From Eriocheir sinensis (taxonomy: Eukaryota; Arthropoda; Malacostraca; Decapoda; Varunidae), in NCBI RefSeq assembly GCF_024679095.1, contig NC_066531.1:4590858-4654857 (forward strand): a stretch of DNA of 64,000 nucleotides, read 5' to 3'. This document shows positions 4,968 through 63,359 of this stretch, piece after piece; the first letter of the stretch is position 1, and each line of letters opens with the position of its first letter. The notes below the pieces were generated by a model, which worked only from the letters and a program-made list of their open reading frames with translations, was not told the origin of the DNA and did not search any database. Both the position numbers and the translations under genes were made by a program.

Positions 4968-7529
4968 TTAGTCGATGCAATCACTGCACAGCAAGGCAGT
5001 GTGATTGGGGCAGATGGATCTCTGGCATTGCTTGCAGGTGGCTCGTACTTTCGACTGTTTCTTCGACCAGGGGCATAGGGCACACCTCTTCTTCCCGGGA
5101 GGCCTTTGCTGTTCCTCCTCCTCTAAAAATGGCACCTTGAAACACATGCTGATGGTGTTTTGATGCTCCTGCTGACTGTGGGGAATTGCAGCCTATGCCG
5201 TGACCAAGGCATTACCAACTCTGCAGCAAGCTGGTGCATGAAGTGCCGACGCTCAAGGGTACCACCACGAGCTTTGTACATAATGAAAGAATTGATGACT
5301 GCAAGGTTCAGCATGCCATAAAAAATGCAAAGAGGCCAACGATTTGTCTTTCGGCTGGACGAGTACACTGCACACATGCGGTCTAGTACATCCACACCCC
5401 CTTTTGTTGAGTTGTAGTAATGTATGACCTCAGGCTTGTTCTTTTCTCCAATAACTGGTTCATTGTGTTTGGAGGACAGCAGATTCACACATTTGTTCTT
5501 CTTCTGTTTATATGAAACAGCCATCAAATTCTTGTCAAAGAGGAAGATACTTGTCTTGACTTTCCTCCGTTCGTCGTTCTTGAACATTACAGGAGGGATG
5601 TACTTCTTCTTTCTGACTGTGCCCACCATATGTGTGTTGCGGTCCCAAAGCTTTCTACTTAGTGGTCGGCCGGTAAACCAGTTATCTGTGGTCACAGTTC
5701 TACCACAGTCCAGGAAGGGCTCAGTGACTTGAGGGTGTAATATTCACCAACCTGACCTGCAGGAATTTTTGGATTCCTTACTTTGCCTAGGTCAATTTTG
5801 GCACTTAGGAGGTAGTTTTTTTGCATCACAACACATGATTATCTTTATCCCATACTTGGCGGGTTTGTTTCTAATGTAAAACCTGAAGGCGCATTTACCC
5901 CGGAATGCCAGTAGCTGCTCATCAACTGTCAACTTGTCGCCTGGTATATAATTTTCCTGACAGTGTGCAAGAAAGCATTCCCACACATCTTTGATGGCTG
6001 CAGAACGGTCTTGTTTCTCGCGTTCAGGTCTTGTGGTGCGATCATCAAAACGCAGGCAACGTGTAATAAACAGGAATCTTTTTTCACTCATAGCAGCTCT
6101 GTAAAGAGGACATCCATGTTGAGCAGACCACATCTCCGCTGTATCGAGTTTGTTATCCTTCTTGCCCCAGACTGCACTAGAACTCCAATGAAAGCCTTCA
6201 GTTCAACCAGAGTGAGTGGGTTAGTCGTAGCCTTTTGGTCCTTGTACTGTGCACGAAGTTGATCCATCCTTGTGTTGGTGTGGCGGAGTATGTCAGATAA
6301 CATCCCATCATCTAGAAATAGTTGCAGGTATTCAACATGTGATTGTGCCCCCTGGGTTGCTGCTGTTGGACCTTCAGTGTATGGAAGAGGTTGGCGTGGT
6401 GGAGCAGTCGTCCTCAATGGCACCTTTGACCATGCAGTCAAGTCAGATGCACGGCACTGACCAATAGGAACTTGGGCAGTGACATCTGCTACAGGTGGTG
6501 TCTGTGGACGTTGTGAAGCTGCAGGTGGTGTCTGTGGACGTTGTGAAGCTGCAGGTGGTGTCTGTGGACGTGGTGAAGCAGCAGGTGGTGTCTGTGGGCG
6601 TGGTGAAGCTGCAGGTGGTGTCTGTGGACGTGGTGAAGCTGCAGGTGGTGTCTGTGGGCGTGGTGAAGCTGCAGGTGGTGTCTGTGGACGTGGTGAAGCT
6701 GCAGGTGGTGTCTGTGTCTGTAGAAGTGAAGAGGGATCATCAGCAGCAGAATCGATGTCTGGGATGGTTTCTGTGTCAGATGCATCCCCACTTGATATCG
6801 GTGATGGCATATAACTTTTATCACTGTCAGTGTCTGGGTCATTTGGGCTACTGTCCTCGGAATCGTACATTAGCTGTTGTTTGCGAGCAGGCGTAGAAGT
6901 GTGGGGTGTAAATGACTTGTTTCTCTCTCCTCTCCCTCTACCTCTGAAGCCTGATGATCTTGCAACTGCTGGTGGAGATGTAGAAGGTCTAGGGAGAGCT
7001 GGTGGGGTATCTGGGTCACTGTCTGAAGAATAAGCTAGCTGTCGTTTGGGAGGAGGCTTAGAAATGTTGGCTGTGAAAGACTTGCGTTTCCTTCTCCCTA
7101 TACCTGATGGTCCTGCAACTGCTAGTGGAGATGTAGAAGAACCAGGGACAGCTGTTTGTGATGTAGATTGGCCAAGGATAGCTGGTCGTGTAGAAGAGCC
7201 AATGATAGCAGGTTGTGTTGTTGAAGGGCCAGGTACAACTGTCTCACAGGTAATAATCATTTGTCCAGTAGATTTTTCTTGGGGGTAACTATAACTTCCA
7301 TTTCATTTCTCCCCAATGATACCTCTTGACATTCCATGACAACCTCGGGGTCAGAAAGTTGGCTATCTGCAGGGGACGAATGTCCAGGGAGGCGGGTTGG
7401 AAGGGTAATCTCTGAGGGGTTCGACTCGTCTCCATCTTCCGACTCAAAACTAATGTTAGCGCTGAACAGGGACGAGTCTATCAGGTCTTGCAGTTCTTTC
7501 TGGCTCAAATACTTCACTTTCTTTGGCAT
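4968..7529 (-). pseudogene. piggyBac transposase, frame-broken
   Basis: Pieces of one piggyBac transposase follow in order on the minus strand. The N-terminus is at 7257-7529 ('MPKKVKYLSQKELQDL'). A Ser/Pro-rich acidic region with a tandem repeat plus the first DDE_Tnp_1_7 segment is at 6088-7260. The piece at 5792-6133 has 'TVDEQLLAFRG', holding the first catalytic Asp. The piece at 5123-5695 has 'TTDNWFTGRPLSRKL' with the second Asp and 'KGGVDVLDRM' with the third. The C-terminal cysteine-rich domain lies in another frame and ends at 4968-4970, with CxxC pairs 'CALC', 'CKQC' and 'CSDC'. All three catalytic aspartates remain, but frames change at about 7258, 6100, 5700-5790 and 5140. This is a pseudogene unless the breaks are assembly errors. 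Confidence 0.85.
6488..6717 (-). repeat. 30-bp coding minisatellite in piggyBac transposase
   Basis: Seven to eight near-identical 30-bp units encode repeats of the ten residues P-R-P-Q-T-P-P-A-A-S in the N-terminal region of the transposase. The unit length is a multiple of three, so copy-number change keeps frame. Confidence 0.9.
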
Positions 7530-20460: not shown

Positions 20461-20786
20461 GTTAGGTTAGGTTAGTTTTAGGTTAGTGTTAGGTTAGGTT
20501 AGGTTAGTGTTAGGTTAGTTTTAGGTTAGGTTAGGTTAGGTTAGGTTAGGTTAGGTTAGGTTAGGTTAGGTTAGTGTTAGGTTAGGTTAGTTTTAGGTTA
20601 GGTTAGGTTAGGTTAGGTTAGTTTAGTTTTAGGTTAGGTTAGGTTAGGTTAGGTTAGGTTAGGTTAGGTTAGGTTAGGTTAGTTTTAGGTTAGGTTAGGT
20701 TAGGTTAGGTTAGGTTAGTGTTAGGTTAGTGTTAGGTTAGGTTAGTTTTAGGTTAGGTTAGGTTAGGTTAGGTTAGGTTATGTTAG
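20461..20786. repeat. Interstitial TTAGG telomere-type array
   Basis: About 325 bp of TTAGG units, with variant units TTAGTG and TTAGTTT at irregular intervals. TTAGG is the telomere repeat of most arthropods. The array lies inside the 3-kb element with unique sequence on both sides, so it is not a chromosome end. Confidence 0.95.
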
Positions 20787-20814
20787 GGTTATGTTTAGTT
20801 TAAATGCACCTGTG

Positions 20815-28300: not shown

Positions 28301-28360
28301 AGATACACACACACAATATGCACACAAACATAAACACAGCTTCCTTAACTTTTGACTTAC

Positions 28361-28652
28361 CTGTGTTTGTTGGGAGCTGAAGCGTTGGTATTGCATCTGG
28401 CTTAAGCTGCTGTAGATGTCTTGGCACTGGCAATTGTAGAAGATCATATTTCAAGTTTCTTTTATAATCCGTTTCATTGAAATGCAAACTGCAAATTGTT
28501 GCATTTTTAGTATTTAGTTCTTGTCTTTTTTTACCACAAAGAGAGACCCATTTCCTTCTCGTTTCTTCATTGCGAGGAAACCTGTGCCACTTGCCAATTT
28601 TATTTGACTGTGTATTTCTACAGCCATTCACGGAACACTTGCGCACCATCAC
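28361..28652 (-). CDS. THAP zinc-finger exon
   Basis: Opens 'MMVRKCSVNGCRNTQSN' and continues 'KWHRFPRNEETRRKWVSLCG', 'ICSLHFNETDY' and 'LKPDAIPTL'. This gives the complete C2CH set of a THAP domain (C-x4-C, later C-x-x-H) with the conserved P, W, F and a final A-x-P-T. The donor GTAAGT leaves one base of a codon (phase 1), the same phase as in the THAP exon at 58935-59241. THAP domains bind DNA and occur in P-type transposases and in host regulators. Downstream exons were not found before the element's left end. A CRE-like TGACGTCA lies 85 bp upstream. Confidence 0.85.
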
Positions 28653-31705: not shown

Positions 31706-31939
31706 TTAGTACTCATCATTACCTCCAACGAAGTGTTTGCTACAGATAAACTTTTGGGCTTTCTTGAACGTCGGAGCCTCCACGCGAGTTGCAAGACCAC
31801 ACAGTCTCCACCACAGGTAGTGTTTGTCTGGGTAGTACTTGCTGGGTGGAAATGGTATGTAATAAACTGGGCTCTCCTGACTTGAAGAACCTGAATTCAC
31901 CCGCCCACAGCCTAAATAAGAGCACCTCTGCACAGGCAT
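31706..31939 (-). CDS. THAP-like zinc-finger exon or fragment
   Basis: Begins 'MPVQRCSYLGCGRVNSG', then 'YYIPFPPSKYYPDKHYLWWR', 'LCG' and 'FKKAQKFICSKHFVGGNDEY', ending at a stop just before the MITE's target duplication. The C-x4-C and late C-x-x-H pair with a central W-W-R-L-C resemble transposon-linked THAP proteins. Downstream coding was probably cut off by the insertion at 31687. Confidence 0.6.
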   Translation of the reverse strand: MPVQRCSYLGCGRVNSGSSSQESPVYYIPFPPSKYYPDKHYLWWRLCGLATRVEAPTFKKAQKFICSKHFVGGNDEY

Positions 31940-31989
31940 TGTCCCACAACGAAGTATGTTGTTGTTTTGGGCCGCGGCGATCTAGTCGC

Positions 31990-44409: not shown

Positions 44410-46755
44410 TCAAAGAATAGGGATAGTTGTTTGGAAGATTGTGTCGAGTGGATAGGTGGAGAAACTGTGTTTTGAGGCGTTGAAGGACACCAGGTTCTTC
44501 TTGCCCCAATCGGAAATAATAGTAAGGTCTGAGGCTAAGCGTTCTGCAGCCTCCAGCCTTGAGTCGTTAAGTTCCTGAAGGGTGGGTCTTCTATTAAAAG
44601 AAGTTGAATAATGCAGAGTGGAATCATCGGCGTAGGAATGGATAGGACAGTTCGTTTTGGAAAGAAGATCATCAATGAACAACAGAAAAAGAGTGGGAGA
44701 TAGGACAGAACCCTGTGGGACACCACTGTTAATAGATTTAGGGGAAGAACAGTGACCGTCTACCACGGCAGAAATAGAACGGTCAGAAAGGAAACTGGAG
44801 ATAAAGGTACAGAGAGAAGGATAGAAACCGTAGGAGGGTAGTTTAGAAAGCAAAGATTTGTGCCAGACCCTATCAAAAGCTTTTGATATGTCCAGCGCAA
44901 TAGCAAAAGTTTCACAGAAACGGCTCCGAGAGGATGACCAAGAGTCAGTTAAGAAGGCTAGGAGATCTCCAGTAGAACGCCCCTTGCGGAACCCATACTG
45001 GCGATCAGATAGAAGGTCAGAAGCGGAAAGGTGCTTTTGAATCTTACGGTTAAGGATTGATTCAAAAGCTTTAGATAGACAAGAAAGTAAAGCAATAGGA
45101 CGGTAGTTTGAGGGATTGGAGCGGTCACCCTTCTTAGGTACAGGCTGTGTGAAGGCATACTTCCAGCAAGAAGGAAAGGTAGATGTTGACAGGCAGAGGC
45201 GAAAGAGTTTGACCAGGCAGGGTGACAGCACGGAGGCACAGTTTTTAAGGACAATAGGAGGCACTCCATCAGGTCCATAAGCCTTCTGAGGATTGAGGCC
45301 AGAGAGGGCATAGAAAACATCATTTTGAAGAATCTTTATAACAGGCATAAAGGAGTCAGAGGGGGAATGAGTAGGAGGAATATGCCCAGAATCGTCCAGA
45401 GTGGAGTTTATAGAAAAAGTTTGAGAGAAGAGTTCAGCCTTAGAGATATATGATACGGCAGTGTTTCCGACAGGACTGAGGAGTGGAGGGAAAGAAGAAG
45501 AATAGAAGTTGGAGGAGATGATAATTGCTAGATGCCAGAAGTCACGGGAAGAGTTAGAGAAAGCAAGGTTTTGACATTTTCTATTAATGAAAGAATTTTT
45601 GGTTAGTCGGAGAATAGATTTGGCACGATTTCGGGCAGAAATGTAAAGTTCATAATTAGCATTAGTTTGAAGGCTCTGGTATCTTTTGTGAGCTACCTCT
45701 CTATCATTGACAGCACGAGAACAAGCGTGATTAAACCAAGGCTTTTTAGCGTGAGGAGTAGAGAAAGAACGAGGAATGTATGCCTCCATTCCAGAGACAA
45801 TCACCTCTGTGATGCGCTGAGCACACACAGAGGGGTCTCTATAATGGAAGCAATAATCATTCCACGGGAAATCGGAAAAGTACATCCTCAGGTCGTCCCA
45901 CCGAGCTGAAGCAAAATGCCAGAAGCATCGCCTCTTCGGTGGGTCCAGAGGATGTACAGGAGCGATAGGACAGGATGCAGAAATAAGATTGTGATCGGAG
46001 GAGCCCAACGGAGAGAACAGTTTGACAGAATAAGCAGAAGGGTTTGAGGTAAGGAAGAGGTCTAGAATGTTGGGCCGATCTCCAAGACGGTCAGGAATAC
46101 GTGTAGGGTGCTGGACCAACTGCTCTAGGTCGTTGAGGATAGCAAAGTTGTAGGCTTGTTCTCCAGGATGGTCAGTGAAAGAGGATGAAAGCCAAAGCTG
46201 GTGGTGAACATTGAAATCTCCTAGGATGGAGATTTCAGCGAATGGAGAGTGGGTCAAGATGTGCTCCACTTTAGAATTCAAATAGTCAAAGAATTTTACA
46301 TAGTTGGTAGAGTTAGGTGAGAGATAAACAGCACAGATGTATTTAGTAATAGAATGACAGTGAAGTCTTAACCAGATGGTGGAAAATTCAGAAGAGTCAA
46401 GGTCGTGGGCACGAGAGCAAGTGATGTCGTTGCGCACGTAGGCGCAACATCCAGCTTTGGATTGAAATTTAGGATAGAGATAGTAGGAGGGAACAGAGTA
46501 GAGATTGCTGTCAGTAGCCTCAGAAACCTGTGTTTCGGTAAGGAAGAGAAGGTGAGGTTTAGAGGAGGAGAGATGATGTTCCACAGAATGAAAATTAGAG
46601 CGAAGACCGCGAATGTTGCAGAAATTGAGAAGAAAGAGGTTCGAGGAGTTATCAAGACACCTCTCGGGTCGGCAGCCAGAAGGGGAGTCCTCCCTGGGGG
46701 AATTTGTGGTCCCCCCCCCAGGCGGGGACTCCGAGGCATTGCTTAATTGAGCCAT
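44410..46755 (-). CDS. LINE endonuclease-reverse transcriptase
   Basis: A 781-codon frame. Residues about 40-260 form an exonuclease-endonuclease-phosphatase domain: '[16 protein letters not shown]', 'FLTETQVS', '[11 protein letters not shown]' and '[10 protein letters not shown]', holding the catalytic E, D-x-N and S-D-H. Residues about 480-750 form the RT: '[12 protein letters not shown]', '[16 protein letters not shown]', '[13 protein letters not shown]', '[14 protein letters not shown]' and the 'YADD' box. The last 25 residues are off-frame, so a late frameshift truncates the thumb. It nicks target DNA and reverse-transcribes its RNA in place. Both catalytic centres look intact. Clade assignment to jockey is from overall style only. 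Confidence 0.9.
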
Positions 46756-46770
46756 TTTGAATTTTGAATT

Positions 46771-47900
46771 TTGGAAAAAGGTGTATATGTTATGTGAATG
46801 TAGTGTGGTGTGGATAAAGAGAGGATCTGTCTTTAGAGAGCATGCTGAACTACTCTCCGGTGTTGGTGAGACAATAGGGCTACCGCCCTATAGTCTCTTT
46901 GAGGTGAACTGATAGCCAATACGTCAGAAATTTCTGGAGATCTTCTGAAATTTTGACATTTTGTCAGAATTTAAGAAATTACTGTAAAATCTTCTGAAAT
47001 TTGAACGAATTGTCAGAAATTCTCCAGATTTTTTGCAAGTTATTGTCCGGGTGTCCGCCCAAACTTGACCGCCATCGTCTCGTACCTCAAGGTTACCGAT
47101 GAGACGATAAGACCCAACGATATAATCTAAGGGATAGACAACCTAATTTGGACCCTAGGGGCTGTGTGATCTGGTTTTCTATGTAATTCTAATGTAATTC
47201 GCCGCCACCTGTCAACAGCGTTGCCTCAGGCGAAGCACTCGGACACAGCCAGACGCCAGCCCAGTGACGTCACGGCAGTCGGCGTCCCCTACTCATACGA
47301 CGCATCCATGCACTTCCAAATGTAAGTAACTGTGCCACGATCTTTGTATAAACAGCGGTGAAACCTACTACTGTGCGTGAATTCGCAAAGCCAAGAAACT
47401 GTTCATGATGGCAGGCGGTAGTATCATCCATGTAGTGAGGCAAGTCCGGAGAATGTAGTGGGTGAAAGAAAAGAGGCTGCGAGACGCCATGGCTAGTCAG
47501 TGACATGTTGGCTCTTAATTTACAGTTGGTCTGTTTTCAAAGGGCGGTAGCCCTATAAAAGAATGTGCCGTACTTAGGCAAGAGGGCACCTCCTCTGTAT
47601 AATGGGAGGTAATGAGCCCATCATTAATTGAAACACATGTTTTTTTAAGAGAAGTACAGTAGTAGGATGCCTTGTAAAGCTGTAATATGTTATACACGCT
47701 AAAATGTAGATTACGCCAGGGTCCAAATCTTATTATTTTTTACCTCTACTGCTTCCTGGGATAAAAACGAGTATGGAAATACCACAGGAATGTTGTGCAA
47801 ACACTTATGTTAAGTTTGGTTAGGTTGTTGTCAAGTTGATAAATAATTTTCTGACAATTACCATTTCTTTCAGTGGTGATAGTGATCTGAATAGTCAAAC
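46771..47900. other. Intergenic with possible left arm of hAT element
   Basis: Around 46920-47040 the words GAGATCTTCTGAAATTTT and TTGTCAGAATTT recall, in altered form, the right arm at 48550-48632. GGGCGGTAGCCCTAT near 47541 is the complement of ATAGGGCTACCGCCC near 46876. No gene was recognised. Confidence 0.35.
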
Positions 47901-52592: not shown

Positions 52593-52949
52593 TTAACGAC
52601 CTTTCCGGAGAAGCTCCATCATGGTGGCCGAAGATATGCCAGCCGTGGCAGGCATGGTGGGCATGGGCAAGCCAGCCGCGGTGGATATGGTGGGCGGGGG
52701 CCTAGACCAGACTGGTTGAGACGCAGTTAGTGGTGTACCGAATGGCAGAGTGGTGGGTGCGTAAGCTGGCGGTGGGGGTCTGTGAAGGGGTGGTGGGTAC
52801 CAGTAGTTGAATGGTGACACGCCCTGCGGTAGTGAGGTGATCAGAGATGCTACGGTTTCGTTCACCCGGTGTGTGAGTGCGGCCACGTCGGGGTTTGGCG
52901 GCTGCTGCGGTGGCGGTGACGGCTGGCTTGCTGGTGTTGCCATGTACAC
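52593..52949 (-). other. Pro-rich open frame of uncertain status
   Basis: 118 codons on the minus strand, opening 'MYMATPASQPSPPPQQPPNP', with 'DVAALTHRVNETVASLITSL' and ending 'ATMMELLRKGR'. It could be the start of a Gag-like protein (Pro-rich linker then 'ELLRKG'), or merely GC-rich sequence. The opposite strand is Gly/Arg-rich and less protein-like. Confidence 0.3.
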
Positions 52950-53021
52950 GGAGCGCGGGAGCCGAGGTGGGGCGGGGCCGACAGGTGTGTGGTCACTGTG
53001 GTGGGCGGTGGTGTACGGGCC

Positions 53022-53191
53022 GCATATTCACGAGAAGTAGCACAGATTTTCAGCCCCGCGCCGCGCTCCTCTCTGATTCCCCGGCTGGCTCTCAAGTTCC
53101 GCCCACCTCCTCTGCGCCTCTCTGCCTCTGCCTCGCTGTCAGTGTCACACACACACACTCGCACACTGTGTGTGTGTAGTCCATGAAACAA

Positions 53192-53262
<71 letters not shown>

Positions 53263-53440
53263 ACACACACACACACACACACACATTCGCATGTGTGTGT
53301 GTGTGTGTGTGTGACACTGACAGCGAGGCAAAGGCCGAGAGGCGCAGAGGAGGTGGGAGGAGCTTGAGAGCCAGCCGGCGAATCAGAGAGGAGCGCGGCG
53401 CGGGGCTGAAAAGTTGTGCTACTTCTTGTGAATATGCATA
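53022..53440. repeat. Palindrome with about 140-bp arms and microsatellite loop
   Basis: Arms 53022-53160 and 53297-53440 are inverted copies (shared CAGCCCCGCGCCGCGCTCCT, CTCTGCGCCTCT, CTCGCTGTCAGTGTCACAC). The loop is (CT)n at 53191-53259, then (CA)n and (TG)n. No protein-coding evidence. Confidence 0.92.
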
Positions 53441-53639
53441 CGGCACAGCAGAGTCGGCCATCCCGTAGGCCAGGGCGGCAGCGCCCAAGTCGTGAAGCGT
53501 GGGGCGAGGCGCGGCCATCACGGCTGCACCAGGCACCTCTCACTGCGCCATAATGTAGATGGAAACGCGTTGTTGGTGCAGAGCGTTTACTAAAGGCTGT
53601 TCACTTAACTCTGAGCCGTGGAGCCGAGCCTCATTTGTA

Positions 53640-54090
53640 ACGAGGCCGCTGATTGGCTGGCTGGCTCTCTCGCTCACCCTGTGTTGAAAGGCTGCATAAT
53701 GAATGCTCGCGTGGCACATGTCTATGTTTTATTCGTTATATTTTGTCTCATACACATAACAGACCATTTTTGTTGGTACCGTTGCACTCAGCAGTGAATG
53801 CAGAAGCTTCGATACTCAGGGAAAAACTATTACTAAGCAATAATAAAGAAGTTTTAGCGAGTTGAAGCGGAAATTTTCTTGCGATATCTTTATAACACTG
53901 TTTATTTATTATCATTTCCTGTGTAAATATTTAAAGGAATGCTGTTATAAACGATTGCGTTTCATAAAAGAATGTCTCCTGAACGGAATGCAATCATCAA
54001 ATTATAGTTAGATGATAATATAAGCGGATTACTGAATTATTTATGAGCATGTGTCACTCGCCGGGAAGAGGGAGCAGCGAGGCAGCACCT
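53640..54090 (+). repeat. Dispersed repeat, copy 1 (about 440 bp)
   Basis: Aligns in the same orientation with 59478-59900 over its whole length at roughly 80%. Shared words include TGATTGGCTGGC, TGTTTTATTCGTTATAT, GATATCTTTATAAC and ATGTCTCCTGAACG. It begins with a CCAAT box. No ORF. Confidence 0.85.
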
Positions 54091-54249
54091 AAGTCTATTT
54101 ATAACAAGTCAAGTCACGCGCAGTTTTGTGGGAGGAGTCACGGCAGAGGCGTGGCTTACTCCTGATGCTGTTTGGTGCCAAACAGAGAATGTAGAATATT
54201 ATGATTTATAGAAAACGAAGAAAGGCGAACTAATTCAAATCGACCCCGG

Positions 54250-54700
54250 TCAACGGCCCCTTATTACTCCAGCAACTTTTCTTCCCTCACATTCATTTCC
54301 CTCCCACACCTTCCATTATACCATCAACATTCTCTCCACATCTCACAATTTCTATCATACCCCATACTTTCCCTTCCATCCCAGTTTCTATCATACCCCA
54401 CACCTTTTACGTCCCATAGTTTCCATCATGCTCCATACTTTCCCTTACATTCCTTAATTTCCATCATGCCCCAGACTTTCCCTTCCATTCCACAGTTTCC
54501 ACCATACCCCACACCTTCCCTTCCATTCCACAGTTTCCATCATACCCCACACCTTCCCTTCCATTCCACAGTTTCCATCATACCCCACACCTTCCCTTCC
54601 GTCCCATAGTTTCCACAATAGCCCACAACTTCTCTTATTATATACCATAATTTCCATCATACTCCACACCTTCCTTCACATCACATAACTTTGTTCTTTC
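54250..54700. repeat. Minisatellite, about 36-38-bp period
   Basis: About ten variant units of CCATCATACCCCACACCTTC plus CCTTCCATTCCACAGTTT. Confidence 0.93.
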
Positions 54701-54930
54701 TCTAAACACCTTCCATTATATATTTTAGTCTCCATCCTCACATTTCTAGGCTGAAAAGTATAACAATCTTGTCCATTTTCACGCTCTATTTTTAGTAGTA
54801 GATATCTTACAATTCTATAACTTGTTGTTGATAATGTAAAAATAAACTCAATTTATTTTTGAAGTTAATATTTTATCAAATTTCATGAAAATACTTAAGG
54901 CTAACAGCAAAAATTAATACACTTTATGTA

Positions 54931-54959
54931 ACACACACCACACACACACACACACACAC

Positions 54960-55054
<95 letters not shown>
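54931..55054. repeat. (CA)n(TA)n microsatellite
   Basis: CA repeat followed by about 94 bp of TA. Confidence 0.97.
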
Positions 55055-55057
<3 letters not shown>

Positions 55058-55479
55058 GTAATTAAGATGATGAAACACTTTGTATTTTTTTTTAGATACA
55101 GCAAGGTTTCTATTCAATATTCTCATTCTAAAGAAAGTACGGCATTTAACATAGAATGTTACCACTTCAGATGGTAGATCTACAAACTCATACATATCCT
55201 GGGCAAGTTTTTTTTATTGCTCCAATGTAGAGCGGCAGCCCGGACCATTGAGATGCAACGAACGAGATAGCAACTGTAACCCCTACTGGTATTTAGGATT
55301 AGACTTGTGAACTGTGAAACTGACCGTCTGCCGAAAATATATGGGTGGCTTACTTAACAAGCACCACTAATTGGTTGTTAGATGTTGGGTCTAGATCCAG
55401 TATATGAGATACCAGATGAAACTAATATATAATATATCTGTGGACTCTCCTGATTATAGAATGACCAGTGACAGACATA

Positions 55480-56100: not shown

Positions 56101-56184
56101 CTGAATGTGTGCCGCCTTCTTGCACAGGATGAATCACATCAGGTGGAGATCCACATCTTGTGTTAGCCTCTTGATCTGGTGTCC
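56101..56184 (-). CDS. THAP gene tandem exon, 6th from the THAP side
   Basis: 84 bp between acceptor 'ttatctcttacag' and donor GTGGGT, phase 1 at both ends, 28 residues: 'TPDQEANTRCGSPPDV' then 'IHPVQEGGTHSG'. Last copy in gene order. Confidence 0.6.
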
Positions 56185-56267
56185 CTGTAAGAGATAACTT
56201 TTATGAAGTAAATTGGCACAAAACATATGGTATTCTCTCTCCCTCTCTCTTGGTACAAAAATTATGG

Positions 56268-56305
<38 letters not shown>

Positions 56306-56492
56306 TTTTATAAAATTTATGGTATTCTCTCTCTCTCTCTCTCTCTCTCTCTAACTCTCTCTCTCTCTCTCTCTCTCTCTTGGTACAAAAATTATGGTAT
56401 TCTCTCTCTCTCTTGGTATAAAAATTATGGTATTCTCTCTCTCTTGGTATAAAAATTATGGTATTCTCTCTCTTTTGGTATAAAAATTATGG

Positions 56493-56544
<52 letters not shown>

Positions 56545-56630
56545 CTCTCTCTCTTGGTACAAAAATTATTGAATTCTCTCTATCTTCAAAGAACATAAAA
56601 ACAAGAAAAGAAAATAGTCCCAGTACCCAC

Positions 56631-56714
56631 CTGAATGTGTGCCGCCTTCTTGCACAGGATGAATCACATCAGGTGGAGATCCACATCTTGTGTTAGCCTC
56701 TTGATCTGGTGTCC
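56631..56714 (-). CDS. THAP gene tandem exon, 5th
   Basis: Identical by eye to the copy at 56101, with the same acceptor, donor and phase. Confidence 0.6.
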
Positions 56715-56873
56715 CTGTAAGAGATAACTTTTATGAAGTAAATTGGCACAAAACATATGGTATTCTCTCTCCCTCTCTCTTGGTACAAAAATTATGGTTT
56801 TCTCTCTCTCTCTCTCTCTCTCTCTCTTGGTACAAAAATTATGGTATTCTCTCTCTTGGTATAAAAACTATGG

Positions 56874-56930
<57 letters not shown>

Positions 56931-57008
56931 TACAAAAATTATGGTATTCTCTCTCTCTCTTGGTATAAAAATTATGGTATTCTCTCTCTCTTGGTATAAA
57001 AATTATGG

Positions 57009-57051
<43 letters not shown>

Positions 57052-57124
57052 TACAAAAATTATGGTATTCTCTCTCTCTTCAAAGAACATAAAAACAAGA
57101 AAAGAAAATAGTCCCAGTACCCAC

Positions 57125-57208
57125 CTGAATGTGTGCCGCCTTCTTGCACAGGATGAATCACATCAGGTGGAGATCCACATCTTGTGTTAGCCTCTTGATC
57201 TGGTGTCC
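57125..57208 (-). CDS. THAP gene tandem exon, 4th
   Basis: Identical exon and splice sites. The CT tract on its upstream side is shorter than in the 56101 and 56631 units. Confidence 0.6.
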
Positions 57209-57252
57209 CTGTAAGAGATAACTTTATGAAATTAATTGGTCCAAACTTATGG

Positions 57253-57319
<67 letters not shown>

Positions 57320-57372
57320 TACAAGAATTATGGTTCTTTCTCTCTCTCTCTCTCTTGGTACAAAAATTATGG

Positions 57373-57435
<63 letters not shown>

Positions 57436-57513
57436 TACAAAATTATGGTATTCTCTCTCTCTCTCTCTTCAAAGAACATAAAAAAAGAAAAAGAAAATAG
57501 TGCCAGTACCCAC

Positions 57514-57597
57514 CTGAATGTGTGCCGCCTTCTTGCACAGGATGAATCACATCAGGTGGAGATCCACATCTTGTGTTAGCCTCTTGATCTGGTGTCC
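57514..57597 (-). CDS. THAP gene tandem exon, 3rd
   Basis: Identical exon and splice sites. Confidence 0.6.
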
Positions 57598-57642
57598 CTG
57601 TAAGAGATAACTTTATGAAATTAATTGGTACAAAACTTATGG

Positions 57643-57717
<75 letters not shown>

Positions 57718-57770
57718 TACAAGAATTATGGTTCTTTCTCTCTCTCTCTCTCTTGGTACAAAAATTATGG

Positions 57771-57805
<35 letters not shown>

Positions 57806-57883
57806 TATAAAAATTATGGTATTCTCTCTCTCTCTCTCTTCAAAGAACATAAAAAATGAAAAGAAAATAGTGCCAGTACCCAC

Positions 57884-57967
57884 CTGAATGTGTGCCGCCT
57901 TCTTGCACAGGATGAATCACATCAGGTGGAGATCCACATCTTGTGTTAGCCTCTTGATCTGGTGTCC
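57884..57967 (-). CDS. THAP gene tandem exon, 2nd
   Basis: Identical exon and splice sites. Confidence 0.6.
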
Positions 57968-58012
57968 CTGTAAGAGATAACTTTATGAAATTAATTGGTA
58001 CAAAACTTATGG

Positions 58013-58047
<35 letters not shown>

Positions 58048-58123
58048 TACAAAAATTATGGTATTCTCTCTCTCTCTCTTGGTACAAAAATTATGGTCTT
58101 CTCTCTCTCTTGGTACTTGGTAA

Positions 58124-58165
<42 letters not shown>

Positions 58166-58208
58166 AAAGAACATAAATAAAAGAAGAGAAAATAGTGCCA
58201 GTACCCAC

Positions 58209-58292
58209 CTGAATGTGTGCCGCCTTCTTGCACAGGATGAATCACATCAGGTGGATATCCACATCTTGTGTTAGCCTCTTGATCTGGTGTCC
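58209..58292 (-). CDS. THAP gene tandem exon, 1st after THAP exon
   Basis: Same exon with one base change (TCT to TAT in coding sense), Ser to Tyr after 'TRCG'. Splice sites are intact. It is joined in phase 1 to the THAP exon ending at 58935. Confidence 0.6.
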
Positions 58293-58527
58293 CTGTAAGA
58301 GATAACTTTATGAAATTAATTGGTACTGGGGGGGGCTGGGGGGAGCGCTGTAAGCCTTCCCGAGAATTTTCTTTTTATATTGGGCTATTTTATGTGCTTC
58401 CTGAAGCCACATGAGCAAATTATTTCCATAAAAAAAATCCTGTATTCCCACTACTGTTAATGTCATCACTGGTAACTAAGTATATACAGTAAACAGACTA
58501 TGTAACTAAACCAATAAGGATCATGAA

Positions 58528-58744
58528 ACTTGACATGCACTTGCTACCCACATGAATTTAAATCCGAACCTAACCGTCGCCGCCGCCCCCCCCTCTCTCT
58601 CTCTCTCTCGTTTGAATCTATACTAATATTAAAAGTCACCCCCTTCTTTATCTCCTACATGGGGGGGGGGAGAGGAAAGAGGGTGACATGCACTTGCTAC
58701 CCACATGAACTTAAATCCAAACCTAACCGTCGCCGCCCCCCCCC

Positions 58745-58790
<46 letters not shown>
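58528..58790. repeat. Duplication, about 155-bp period, with CT tracts
   Basis: GACATGCACTTGCTACCCAC and AACCTAACCGTCGCCGCC followed by C-run and (CT)n occur twice (58530 and 58685). It lies in the putative first intron of the THAP gene. Confidence 0.9.
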
Positions 58791-58792
<2 letters not shown>

Positions 58793-58934
58793 GTAACTAG
58801 TTTTTTAGATAAGGTTACAAAAAACTACTTTATTGACATATATGGTGCTATTATCATCACCCCGCCAAGTATACACAATACAATATCATGCTATAATGCG
58901 AAAATAATATAATTTTATTAATAATAAAGCTTAC

Positions 58935-59241
58935 CTTGTGTTGAGCGTTGAACCATTGGTACAGCATCAGCATTCAGAGTTCTGCGAGTATATGGTATTG
59001 GAAGGCCTAGCAATTCGTATTTTAAGTGTCTTTCATAGTCACTTGGTTTAAAATGTAAACTGCAGATTCTTGCATTTTTAATGTTCCTATTTTCTAGACT
59101 GCAGGCTGCTATCCACTTCTCTCTCTGAAACTCATTCTTAGGGAAGCGATGCAGCCTGATATTCTCTTGCCGCTTGTAGGCATTAGAACTGCACTCACGC
59201 ACAATACAATAATAAGGCATTTTCTTCCTTAAAGTGGCCAC
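58935..59241 (-). CDS. THAP zinc-finger first exon
   Basis: Starts at ATG 59241 ('MATLRKKMPYYC') or 59220. A complete THAP domain: 'MPYYCIVRECSSNAYK', 'IRLHRFPKNEFQREKWIAAC', 'ICSLHFKPSDYERHL' and 'LNADAVPMV', with C-x4-C, central P and W, and C-x-x-H. Donor GTAAGC follows 'RSTQ' plus one base (phase 1). The next compatible exons on this strand are the six 84-bp copies, all phase 1, which could lengthen the protein by 28 residues each. The domain binds DNA through zinc. No catalytic domain was found downstream, so it is either a host regulator or the N-terminal part of a P-type transposon gene. Confidence 0.85.
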
Positions 59242-59346
59242 TGGCTTGCCTGATCACGCGCCGAAAAAAAAAATCAAGGATGGCGAACACCCTCTATGAC
59301 GCACGTCAGCCCACCACCAGAGCCGCGCGCCAACTGTTGGGCCAAG

Positions 59347-59354
59347 TGACGTCA
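59347..59354. promoter_or_regulatory. CRE-like palindrome upstream of THAP gene
   Basis: TGACGTCA in AAGTGACGTCACTGC, about 106 bp upstream of the first ATG, as at the other THAP exon (28737-28744). Confidence 0.45.
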
Positions 59355-59477
59355 CTGCTGACTCCGCCTGTTGCTCCGCCCATGCGCGCTACTTTCAAAA
59401 ATAAGGAGAAAATTGACTTGACTTAGGGCAGCACGACACAAGGCTGTGTAGGGAGGTGAGGACGGGGGTAAGGAGAG

Positions 59478-59900
59478 CGCTGATTGGCTGGCGGCCTCTC
59501 TCACTCACCTGTTGAGAGGCAGTGTATAATGGTATATGTTTATGTTTTATTCGTTATATCTTGTCTCATGTACGTGACAGATAATTTCTGTTGGTACCTT
59601 TAGACTCGGCAATGAATGGGGAACTTTCGATACTCAGGAAAAAGATAGCAATAAGCAACTATAAAGAAATTTTGGCGAGTTGAAGTGAAAGCTTTCTTCC
59701 GATATCTTTATAACGCTGTTTATTTATCATCATTTCCTGAATAAATATTCAAAGGTATGCTGCTATAAACTATTGCATTTCATTGAGGGATGTCTCCTGA
59801 ACGCAATACAATTGTCAACTTATAGTTAGAAGGTAATGTAAGTGAATTACAAAATAATTTATGGGAAGGTATGACTCGCGGGAAAGGGCGAGCGGCGGAG
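59478..59900 (+). repeat. Dispersed repeat, copy 2
   Basis: See the 53640-54090 copy. Starts CTGATTGGCTGGC and ends near ATGACTCGCGGGAA. Lies upstream of the THAP gene. Confidence 0.85.
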
Positions 59901-60318
59901 TGCGGCCGGCCAGGCGGCAGACTCATGCTGCAGGTGAGGGGGAGGGGAGGCTCAGGCAGTGAAGACAGCACAGCAGTGAGGGGGGAAAGCAGAAAATATA
60001 TAGGCCGGGTGTATTTTACTTACTTGATTTTACTTATAGATACGATGCATCCTTTGGCACAACATGAAAGTAATGGTGCTAATCTGACGATTATTGACAC
60101 TGGATTGATAGTTTTCCTGTGGAACATATAGGTTATATAGCTACATGAAATAAAATCACGCCATGAACACTTTACCCCCCATTTCTTTTCTTAAATGCCT
60201 GGACGGTGTGGTATTGTGAGTAAAACAAAAAAAATGTGTGTAATATAGCCTACCTTGAACCGTGAAATTAGAAAATGCCTCAAAGCATGTCATGTCCCGC
60301 GTTTAGGAAATGCTACTT

Positions 60319-60859: not shown

Positions 60860-61080
60860 GTAAGTCTTGAGTTCCTAAGTGTCTGTTAAATGTTAATGTT
60901 AAGTTGTAAACCTTTGTGTCTATCACAGTGACAGTCATCTCCCATTGTCTGCCAACTTAATGTCAACCTCACAGTGTGAACTATATAATGTCTAAAATTT
61001 AAGAAACGTCACATATTGTCTACCAAACTTTACAATGTCAGTCAACCTAACAGCGGTTTTTTTTTTTTCTTTCTTTTTAG
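60860..61080 (+). other. Putative 5' intron of the transposase gene
   Basis: Donor GGTAAGTC at 60859 and acceptor TTTTTTTCTTTCTTTTTAG ending at 61080, with a strong polypyrimidine tract. Splicing would remove the in-frame upstream extension starting at 61016 and place the first ATG at 61100. Confidence 0.5.
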
Positions 61081-61099
61081 CTGTGCTGGACACCCCATC

Positions 61100-62407
61100 A
61101 TGGCTGAAGGAGGCAGCATTATTGAAGGTATCAGCAAAACATCTGAAGATGGCAGTGAAGCTGAAGGGGGTGATGCAGTTGAACAGACAACTGGAGATGG
61201 CAGTGCAGCTCGTGATGCAGTGCACAGATTTAGAAGTCAGACCAGGAAAATAATACTGAATGTGTACCATTTCTTTCGCGGACAGTGGGGGACAGATTCC
61301 AGCAGTGAAGTAGTGGAGAAAACCTCGAAGGCTACAGTGAAAAGGATTAGGCAAGAGGCAGCTAGACATGGCGGCAGCATCCTCCCTTCACCTGTTCAGC
61401 AAAGCAAGAGAGTGAGACTGAGGGGCAACATCGACAGTTTTGACAAGGACTGCATCAGGAAGGAAATTTTATCTTTCTATGAAAGAGGAGAACTGCCAAC
61501 TTTATCTGCCCTTCTTGAGAAAGTAAAGGAGGAGCCAGTGAATTACCATGGTGGAAAAACAACATTGTGGAAAATTGTGAGAGGGCTTGGATTTCGGCAC
61601 AAAAAAGTGACAAGTGGCAGAGCTATTTTAATGGAGCGAGGTGACATTGTGGCACATAGAACTGAATACTTAAGACTGATTGAAAAAAATAGAAATTGCA
61701 GCCCCTCCACACGCAGACAAGAAGTGTACATTGATGAAACATGGGTAAACCAAAATGAATGTGTGCAACGATGCTGGACAGTGGCTGATGGATCAGTTGG
61801 ACCGAAACTTAAAACTGGTAAAGGCTCAAGATTCATCGTGGTACACGCCGGAAGTGAAGAGGGTTTTGTTCAGGGTGCACTAATGCTGTTTCGGTCAAAG
61901 TTTGGTGCAAAAGGTGATTACCATGATTCCATGGACCATGAAAAATTCAAAATGTGGTTTGAGGAGCAGCTGCTACCAAACATAAATGAAAGATCGCTAA
62001 TAATCATGGACAACGCGTCTTACCACAGCAAAATTGAAAATAAAATTCCAACGTGCAGCAACAGGAAAAGTGAAATTGTTGAATGGCTTTCTGCTAATAA
62101 CGTCCAACACGATCCATCAGTGTCAAAACAGAAACTAATACAAATAGCAAAACTAAACAAAGAAAAGCAGAGATACGTGATTGATGAAATAGCCCGTGCC
62201 AATGGACATCAAGTGCTGCGACTGCCACCTTATTACTGCCAGTTTAATCCAATAGAACTTATTTGGGCACAGGTAAAGAGTGACGTTCGGTCCAAAAACT
62301 CTAATTCAAATCAGTCCCTTAAAATTGTCGATGAACTTACAAGAGCGGCAATAAATAAAGTCACCAAGGAAGACTGGAAAAGTGTATTGCTCATGTTAAG
62401 AAAATAG
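61100..62407 (+). CDS. Tc1/mariner-superfamily transposase with wide D-E spacing
   Basis: 435 codons from ATG 61100, chosen because it directly follows a strong splice acceptor. An acidic N-terminus is followed by HTH regions ('KATVKRIRQEA', 'GGKTTLWKIVRGLGFRHKK') and a DDE_3 catalytic domain: D212 in 'VYIDETWVNQNE', D304 in 'LIIMDNASYHS', E386 in 'YYCQFNPIELIWAQVKSD'. D304 and E386 are 82 apart, far more than the 34-41 usual in Tc1/mariner; this resembles the DD82E (Sailor) group as I recall it. The frame closes at 62407, but a one-base shift near 62382 would give an acidic 45-residue tail ending at 62523, so a single indel is likely. Otherwise the gene looks intact. Confidence 0.85.
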   Translation: MAEGGSIIEGISKTSEDGSEAEGGDAVEQTTGDGSAARDAVHRFRSQTRKIILNVYHFFRGQWGTDSSSEVVEKTSKATVKRIRQEAARHGGSILPSPVQQSKRVRLRGNIDSFDKDCIRKEILSFYERGELPTLSALLEKVKEEPVNYHGGKTTLWKIVRGLGFRHKKVTSGRAILMERGDIVAHRTEYLRLIEKNRNCSPSTRRQEVYIDETWVNQNECVQRCWTVADGSVGPKLKTGKGSRFIVVHAGSEEGFVQGALMLFRSKFGAKGDYHDSMDHEKFKMWFEEQLLPNINERSLIIMDNASYHSKIENKIPTCSNRKSEIVEWLSANNVQHDPSVSKQKLIQIAKLNKEKQRYVIDEIARANGHQVLRLPPYYCQFNPIELIWAQVKSDVRSKNSNSNQSLKIVDELTRAAINKVTKEDWKSVLLMLRK

Positions 62408-63024: not shown

Positions 63025-63359
63025 CCTCGCAAACCTTAGCGGGAAGAAGTCCTATCTTCATGGCGTGATTTTATTTCATGTAGCTATATAACCTATATGT
63101 TCCACAGGAAAAACTATCAATCCAGTGTCAATAATCGTCAGATTAGCACCATTACTTTCATGTTGTGCCAAAGGATGCATCGTATCTATAAGTAAAATCA
63201 AGTAAGTAAAATAATAAATAATGCATGCAGGACACCCGGCCTATATATTTTCTGTTGTGCCAAAGGATGCATCGTATCTATAAGTAAAATCAAGTAAGTA
63301 AAATAATAAATAATGCATGCAGGACACCCGGCCTATATATTTTCTGCTTTCCCCTTTTG

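Follow-up and report, generated by a model that had tools for sequence, protein, structure and literature searches.

Six near-identical tandem exons behind a THAP exon in a probable P-element-type transposase gene of the crab Eriocheir sinensis

Organization of the THAP Locus

The window analyzed here is a 64,000-nucleotide stretch of the Eriocheir sinensis genome (contig NC_066531.1, positions 4,590,858 to 4,654,857), and all coordinates refer to it. On its minus strand lies an exon of 286 nt (58935-59220) that runs from an ATG to a phase-1 donor (gtaagc) and encodes 95 residues. The initial annotation had placed the start of this exon at 59241, a position that corresponds to an upstream in-frame GTG; the phase-1 end that it described was retained, and the start was moved to the ATG at 59220. 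The product matches the Pfam THAP profile (PF05485) over residues 5-90 with an E-value of 4.9e-17 and a score of 62.9 bits against a cut-off of 23.9, which assigns it to the THAP domain proteins. The nearest solved chain is 2d8r_A ('THAP domain-containing protein 2'; E 4.2e-5). Another THAP exon sequence, P0002, closely resembles it (92% across a match of 116 columns that extends into the intron), which indicates either several copies or a close species.

Downstream in the gene sense, beyond an intron of 642 bp (intron 1, 58293-58934), six units of 84 bp follow on the same strand: unit 1 (58209-58292), unit 2 (57884-57967), unit 3 (57514-57597), unit 4 (57125-57208), unit 5 (56631-56714) and unit 6 (56101-56184). 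Five of them are identical over all 84 nt, and unit 1 differs at a single base that changes a Ser into a Tyr; an exact-pattern scan of the window accordingly returned the five perfect copies. The predicted acceptor ...ttatctcttacag and a predicted donor starting with gtgggtac are common to all six, including the last unit. The six segments with AG and GT ends that had been described behind the THAP exon, each running from phase 1 to phase 1, are thus confirmed on the minus strand. The arrangement constitutes a tandem exon duplication, that is, adjacent homologous exons of the same phase, each with its own splice sites as predicted from the sequence, and the THAP exon is presumably joined to unit 1 by splicing. 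Because each exon measures 84 bp and is bounded by phase 1 on both sides, every copy adds 28 residues and maintains the frame, so that six copies amount to 168 residues. The copies being identical, their openness and phase compatibility represent one independent observation and not six. A search of the window for a seventh unit found none: the six units score 153-159, the next-best stretch 37, and the best stretch of one shuffled window 36.

The five introns between the units measure 241, 286, 305, 410 and 446 bp. AG runs make up 37-49% of each, and the read-through frame of each is interrupted by one or more stops. The units are repeated together with their introns as blocks, and adjacent units have flank variants in common: units 5 and 6 on the upstream side, and units 4 and 5 on the downstream side. 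The evidence supports the very recent expansion proposed earlier, as a tandem and recent multiplication inside introns rich in AG/CT. Among the six units, 1 of the 84 exon columns is variable, against 13 of the 64 columns in the immediate intron flanks (Fisher p 8e-5), a set that takes in a T-rich stretch where the alignment is unsure; when restricted to the nearest flanks, the comparison is 5 of 52 against 1 of 84 (p 0.03). The lower variation of the exon would suit either a constraint on the exon or an exchange centred on it.

A Public Isoform Carries Six Units

Protein searches revealed a public protein model of the same species, isoform X14 of LOC126981188 (P0001), with a length of 314 residues. 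It contains six 28-residue units in a row, with a linker of 46 residues and then a coiled coil behind them. As a public protein model, it lends indirect support to transcripts in which the copies are joined. The first 40 residues of X14 match the window within intron 1, just before unit 1 (58412-58329; from 58341 the match reads straight into the unit), and the N-terminus of this isoform is thus located inside intron 1 and not in the THAP exon. X14 and the window are not letter-identical, as the match shifts frame near a C-run and unit 1 of the window differs by the Tyr. The part of X14 following the units finds no match in the window, including the region behind the donor of unit 6.

Three protein searches were performed, admitting lengths of about 115-364, 307-976 and 680-2165 residues. 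P0001 was the sole carrier of the unit among the 29 proteins from the first two, and the third, with 650 candidates, returned neither a unit-bearing protein nor a longer isoform of LOC126981188. The only unit-bearing product seen carries six units, and the variable repeat number put forward in the initial annotation is not supported by these searches. Viral contigs gave no exact match to a 30-base stretch of the unit. Taken together, the annotated isoform supports the reading of the units at this locus as coding exons arranged in tandem behind the DNA-binding THAP domain, as the initial annotation had put forward, and the linker position attributed to the units there is borne out by X14, in which they precede the coiled coil. 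The public six-unit isoform and the lower variability of the exon relative to its intron flanks place the array above chance; on these two grounds the possibility of open frames arising by chance in a minisatellite was dropped, with the nearest-flank test contributing weakly.

The structure of X14 alone was modeled with AlphaFold2, giving a mean pLDDT of 59.2 and a pTM of 0.45, with the units drawn as a beta-solenoid at pLDDT values of about 61-78. None of the 130 PDB matches to the model reached E <= 0.001. Models of the beta-solenoid type are described as a known fault of prediction for perfect repeats (PMC11795689). Given this artefact and the lack of a solved fold at that threshold, the solenoid model carries little weight, and a solenoid fold for the units was set aside. 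A Pfam LRRCT match to the whole of P0001 (27.8 bits against a curated 20, E 2.8e-6, 16 of 26 profile positions) formally exceeds the cut-off, and was judged spurious as a leucine-rich-repeat cap since no single stretch passes.

Relationship to P-Element-Type Transposases

The coiled coil of X14 connects the array to a second protein, P0009, whose 676 residues comprise the P-element helix-turn-helix (HTH), RNase H N, GTP-binding insertion and RNase H C domains, and which is encoded on a contig of at most 2760 bases. Of 46 residues compared between the X14 coil and the N-terminal end of P0009, 41 are the same. Immediately downstream of the array in the gene sense, the minus strand of the window contains a C-terminal stub of a P-type transposase body (55064-55213) that matches residues 625-674 of P0009 with 94% identity, in the order expected for one gene. 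A frame slip occurs in an A-run just before this stub, and the rest of the P0009 body finds no match in the window near the array. The transposase body is consequently seen in the relative P0009 and is tied to the array through X14, the window itself matching residues 625-674 only. Likewise, the order THAP-units-coil is pieced together from the window (THAP and units) and X14 (units and coil), and no single sequence seen has all three. The likeness of the coil to P0009, the stub, and the failure to find the remaining body suggest a P-type transposase gene without its catalytic body. This assignment to the P-element transposase type, and the apparent loss of the catalytic body, are missing from the initial annotation.

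Crustacean relatives display the THAP domain in several contexts. A protein of Panulirus (P0007, 858 aa, publicly named 'transposable element P transposase') contains a THAP domain and P-transposase domains without the unit, and in Macrobrachium (P0004) THAP is joined to P-transposase domains, the unit being absent. In Penaeus (P0005), THAP is the sole domain among those listed. A gene model of Chionoecetes opilio (P0016, outside the window) combines a stretch resembling a P-transposase C-terminus with several THAP segments and an imperfect repeat run of its own, and may be a merged model. A further idea, that the unit derives from a linker of which Panulirus retains a single copy, was considered and rejected, as the position fits and the statistics do not. 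Shuffled sequences aligned to the Panulirus linker as well as the unit alone in 1756 of 5000 cases, as the unit with the tail linker in 243 of 5000, and as the tail linker alone in 2320 of 5000. A BLASTP comparison of unit, linker and coil with P0007 gave E 3e-6, calculated for one comparison, in a match that includes the coil.

The search for transposon ends compared 59225-60010 with 52600-55060, allowing up to 2 mismatches in an inverted 14-mer pair and up to 1 in an 8-bp target duplication; within these limits, no terminal inverted repeats with target duplication were found. The best inverted BLAST match has an E-value of 1.7, and no terminal repeats of this locus are present among the 25 longest of 793 inverted pairs. 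The ends of the element may be lost or lie beyond the limits searched. The locus is for this reason called a relic of a P-type gene and not an intact P element. The sole notable repeat flanking the THAP locus is direct and not inverted, with a length of about 443 bp and 79% identity between an upstream copy before the THAP exon (59468-59897) and a downstream copy (53637-54079), both on the minus strand.

Other repeats and transposon-type open frames are present in the window, along with two further THAP ORFs (28359-28649 and 31709-31981, minus strand) behind which none of the 29 proteins showed a transposase body. Long inverted repeats (60012-60167 and 63057-63213; 100% identical over 104 and 56 nt) enclose a plus-strand ORF of 472 residues with a DDE_3 domain (60989-62404), an arrangement that looks like a young cut-and-paste element. 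A minus-strand ORF (6091-7302) encodes a transposase with the Pfam domain DDE_Tnp_1_7, which we take to be of the piggyBac type. Ahead of its catalytic part, about 7.6 tandem 30-bp copies (6488-6716, minus strand) encode QTPPAASPRP and variants, so that the window holds a second transposase with an expanded run of repeats, contained in this case in a single open frame. An open frame of 825 aa on the minus strand (44413-46887) with endonuclease and reverse transcriptase belongs by its domains to a non-LTR retrotransposon, and an interstitial GTTAG array of about 63 copies (89% matches) is located at 20461-20787; GTTAG is the arthropod-type telomere repeat.

Alternative Explanations

We consider it probable that the locus is a P-element/THAP9-like transposase gene that has been gutted of its catalytic body, and in which the linker exon between the DNA-binding finger and the dimerisation coil has been multiplied in tandem. 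A competing view is that of a host gene, in which a long intron would separate the array from coil exons located to the left of the window, several alternative THAP first exons might exist, and the stub at 55213 would be unrelated debris. The tail of X14 was not found in the window and, if it belongs to the same locus, would lie more than 55 kb downstream. The two further THAP ORFs (28359-28649 and 31709-31981) lie on the strand of the array, and the first of them ends at a phase-1 gtaagt donor. The label X14 implies at least 14 isoforms by its name alone, and transposon ends are lacking within the limits tried. These observations are met by the 94% match to the end of P0009, which follows the array immediately, with the strand and order expected of a single gene, and by the 41 of 46 residues that the coil of X14 shares with the N-terminal end of P0009. 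A host gene with a very long intron is an unlikely explanation of the locus.

Another view retains the transposon origin and denies the units a role in the protein, the locus being a dead relic in which an exon-bearing minisatellite is left unspliced and is coding only in appearance. Microsatellites in introns can grow arrays without selection; a search of the window did not reveal the catalytic body, the frame slips in the A-run before the stub, and X14 is possibly a computed model. The exon columns are, however, less variable than their flanks, and X14 presents the same six units as a protein whose sequence departs from that of the window in unit 1 and close to the C-run, which makes this account rather improbable. 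That the array was made by the assembler from one real unit seems extremely improbable. Low-complexity AG runs are hard to assemble, and the introns consist of such runs; X14, moreover, might share its assembly with the window. Against this, the introns differ in length and partly in the bases next to the exons, and X14 has six units without being letter-identical to the window, which argues against an assembler-made array.

A Proposed Multiplied Linker in a Probable P-Type Transposase Gene

The preferred reading, a gutted transposase gene with a multiplied linker exon, comes with a proposed mechanism. A short exon between the THAP finger and the dimerisation coil would have been copied in tandem along with its AG-rich intron, the AG runs and short intron repeats providing the homology for unequal exchange or gap repair. 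Such homology would explain the spread of the unit, and one of these two processes is the likely route. In relatives that keep the body, a long linker would let the finger reach a distant site while the dimerised body acts. As the catalytic body is apparently lost in the window, this copy alone would make at most a THAP-plus-linker protein.

P-element transposase is organized in the order THAP, dimerisation zipper, HTH and split RNase H (PMC7776569). The structure of this transposase leaves the THAP domain and the greater part of the dimerisation region unresolved, and their mobility is offered as the reason why ends of different spacing can pair (PMC7776569). In zebrafish THAP9, an insertion of about 100 residues separates the THAP and dimerisation domains; it was judged disordered and proposed to act as a linker to remote inverted repeats (PMC10983969). 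The crab units would occupy the same place, and a linker role is on that account their best-supported reading. The crab stretch differs from the zebrafish insertion in its 168 residues encoded by six near-identical exons, the insertion not being described as repetitive in section 5 of that report (PMC10983969).

More generally, the crab gene resembles the P-element transposases and THAP9 proteins of Drosophila, Anopheles and zebrafish in the THAP domain of the window and in the coiled coil, HTH, and split RNase H with GTP-binding insertion of P0009. It departs from them in the six tandem linker exons between THAP and coil, in a body that was not found in the window, and in the lack of inverted repeats with target duplication within the limits searched. 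Deleted copies are a further point of likeness, as internally deleted copies are known from Drosophila (PMC7776569) and zebrafish (PMC10983969). Galileo, a member of the P superfamily in Drosophila, also combines a THAP-bearing transposase family with repetition linked to THAP binding, but its tandem repeats lie in the DNA ends and serve there as binding sites (PMC3688188), whereas those of the crab are protein exons. Mostly short symmetric exons thought to vary the protein by splicing are described for schistosome micro-exon genes (PMC5825161), and internal tandem repeats that alter gene structure for human paralogs (PMC2812944); these are other genes with other exon sizes, while the crab array belongs to a transposase-type gene and its exons are virtually identical. 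Literature searches on the subject and on tandem symmetric exons gave no report of this array among the matches listed.

A more far-reaching possibility is that the array serves as a length dial. Splicing or copy number would then set how many units stand between the finger and the dimerising body, and hence the spacing of DNA sites that can be bridged, in a P-type transposase or in a repressor of such origin, with gutted copies acting as long-armed THAP competitors. We regard this extension as speculative and quite improbable. Should the finger stay constant while the linker grows in exact steps of 28 residues, the units would provide a natural series with which the spacing idea could be tested directly. 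The locus would also illustrate cleanly how simple repeats can multiply the exon that they surround within a transposon-type gene.
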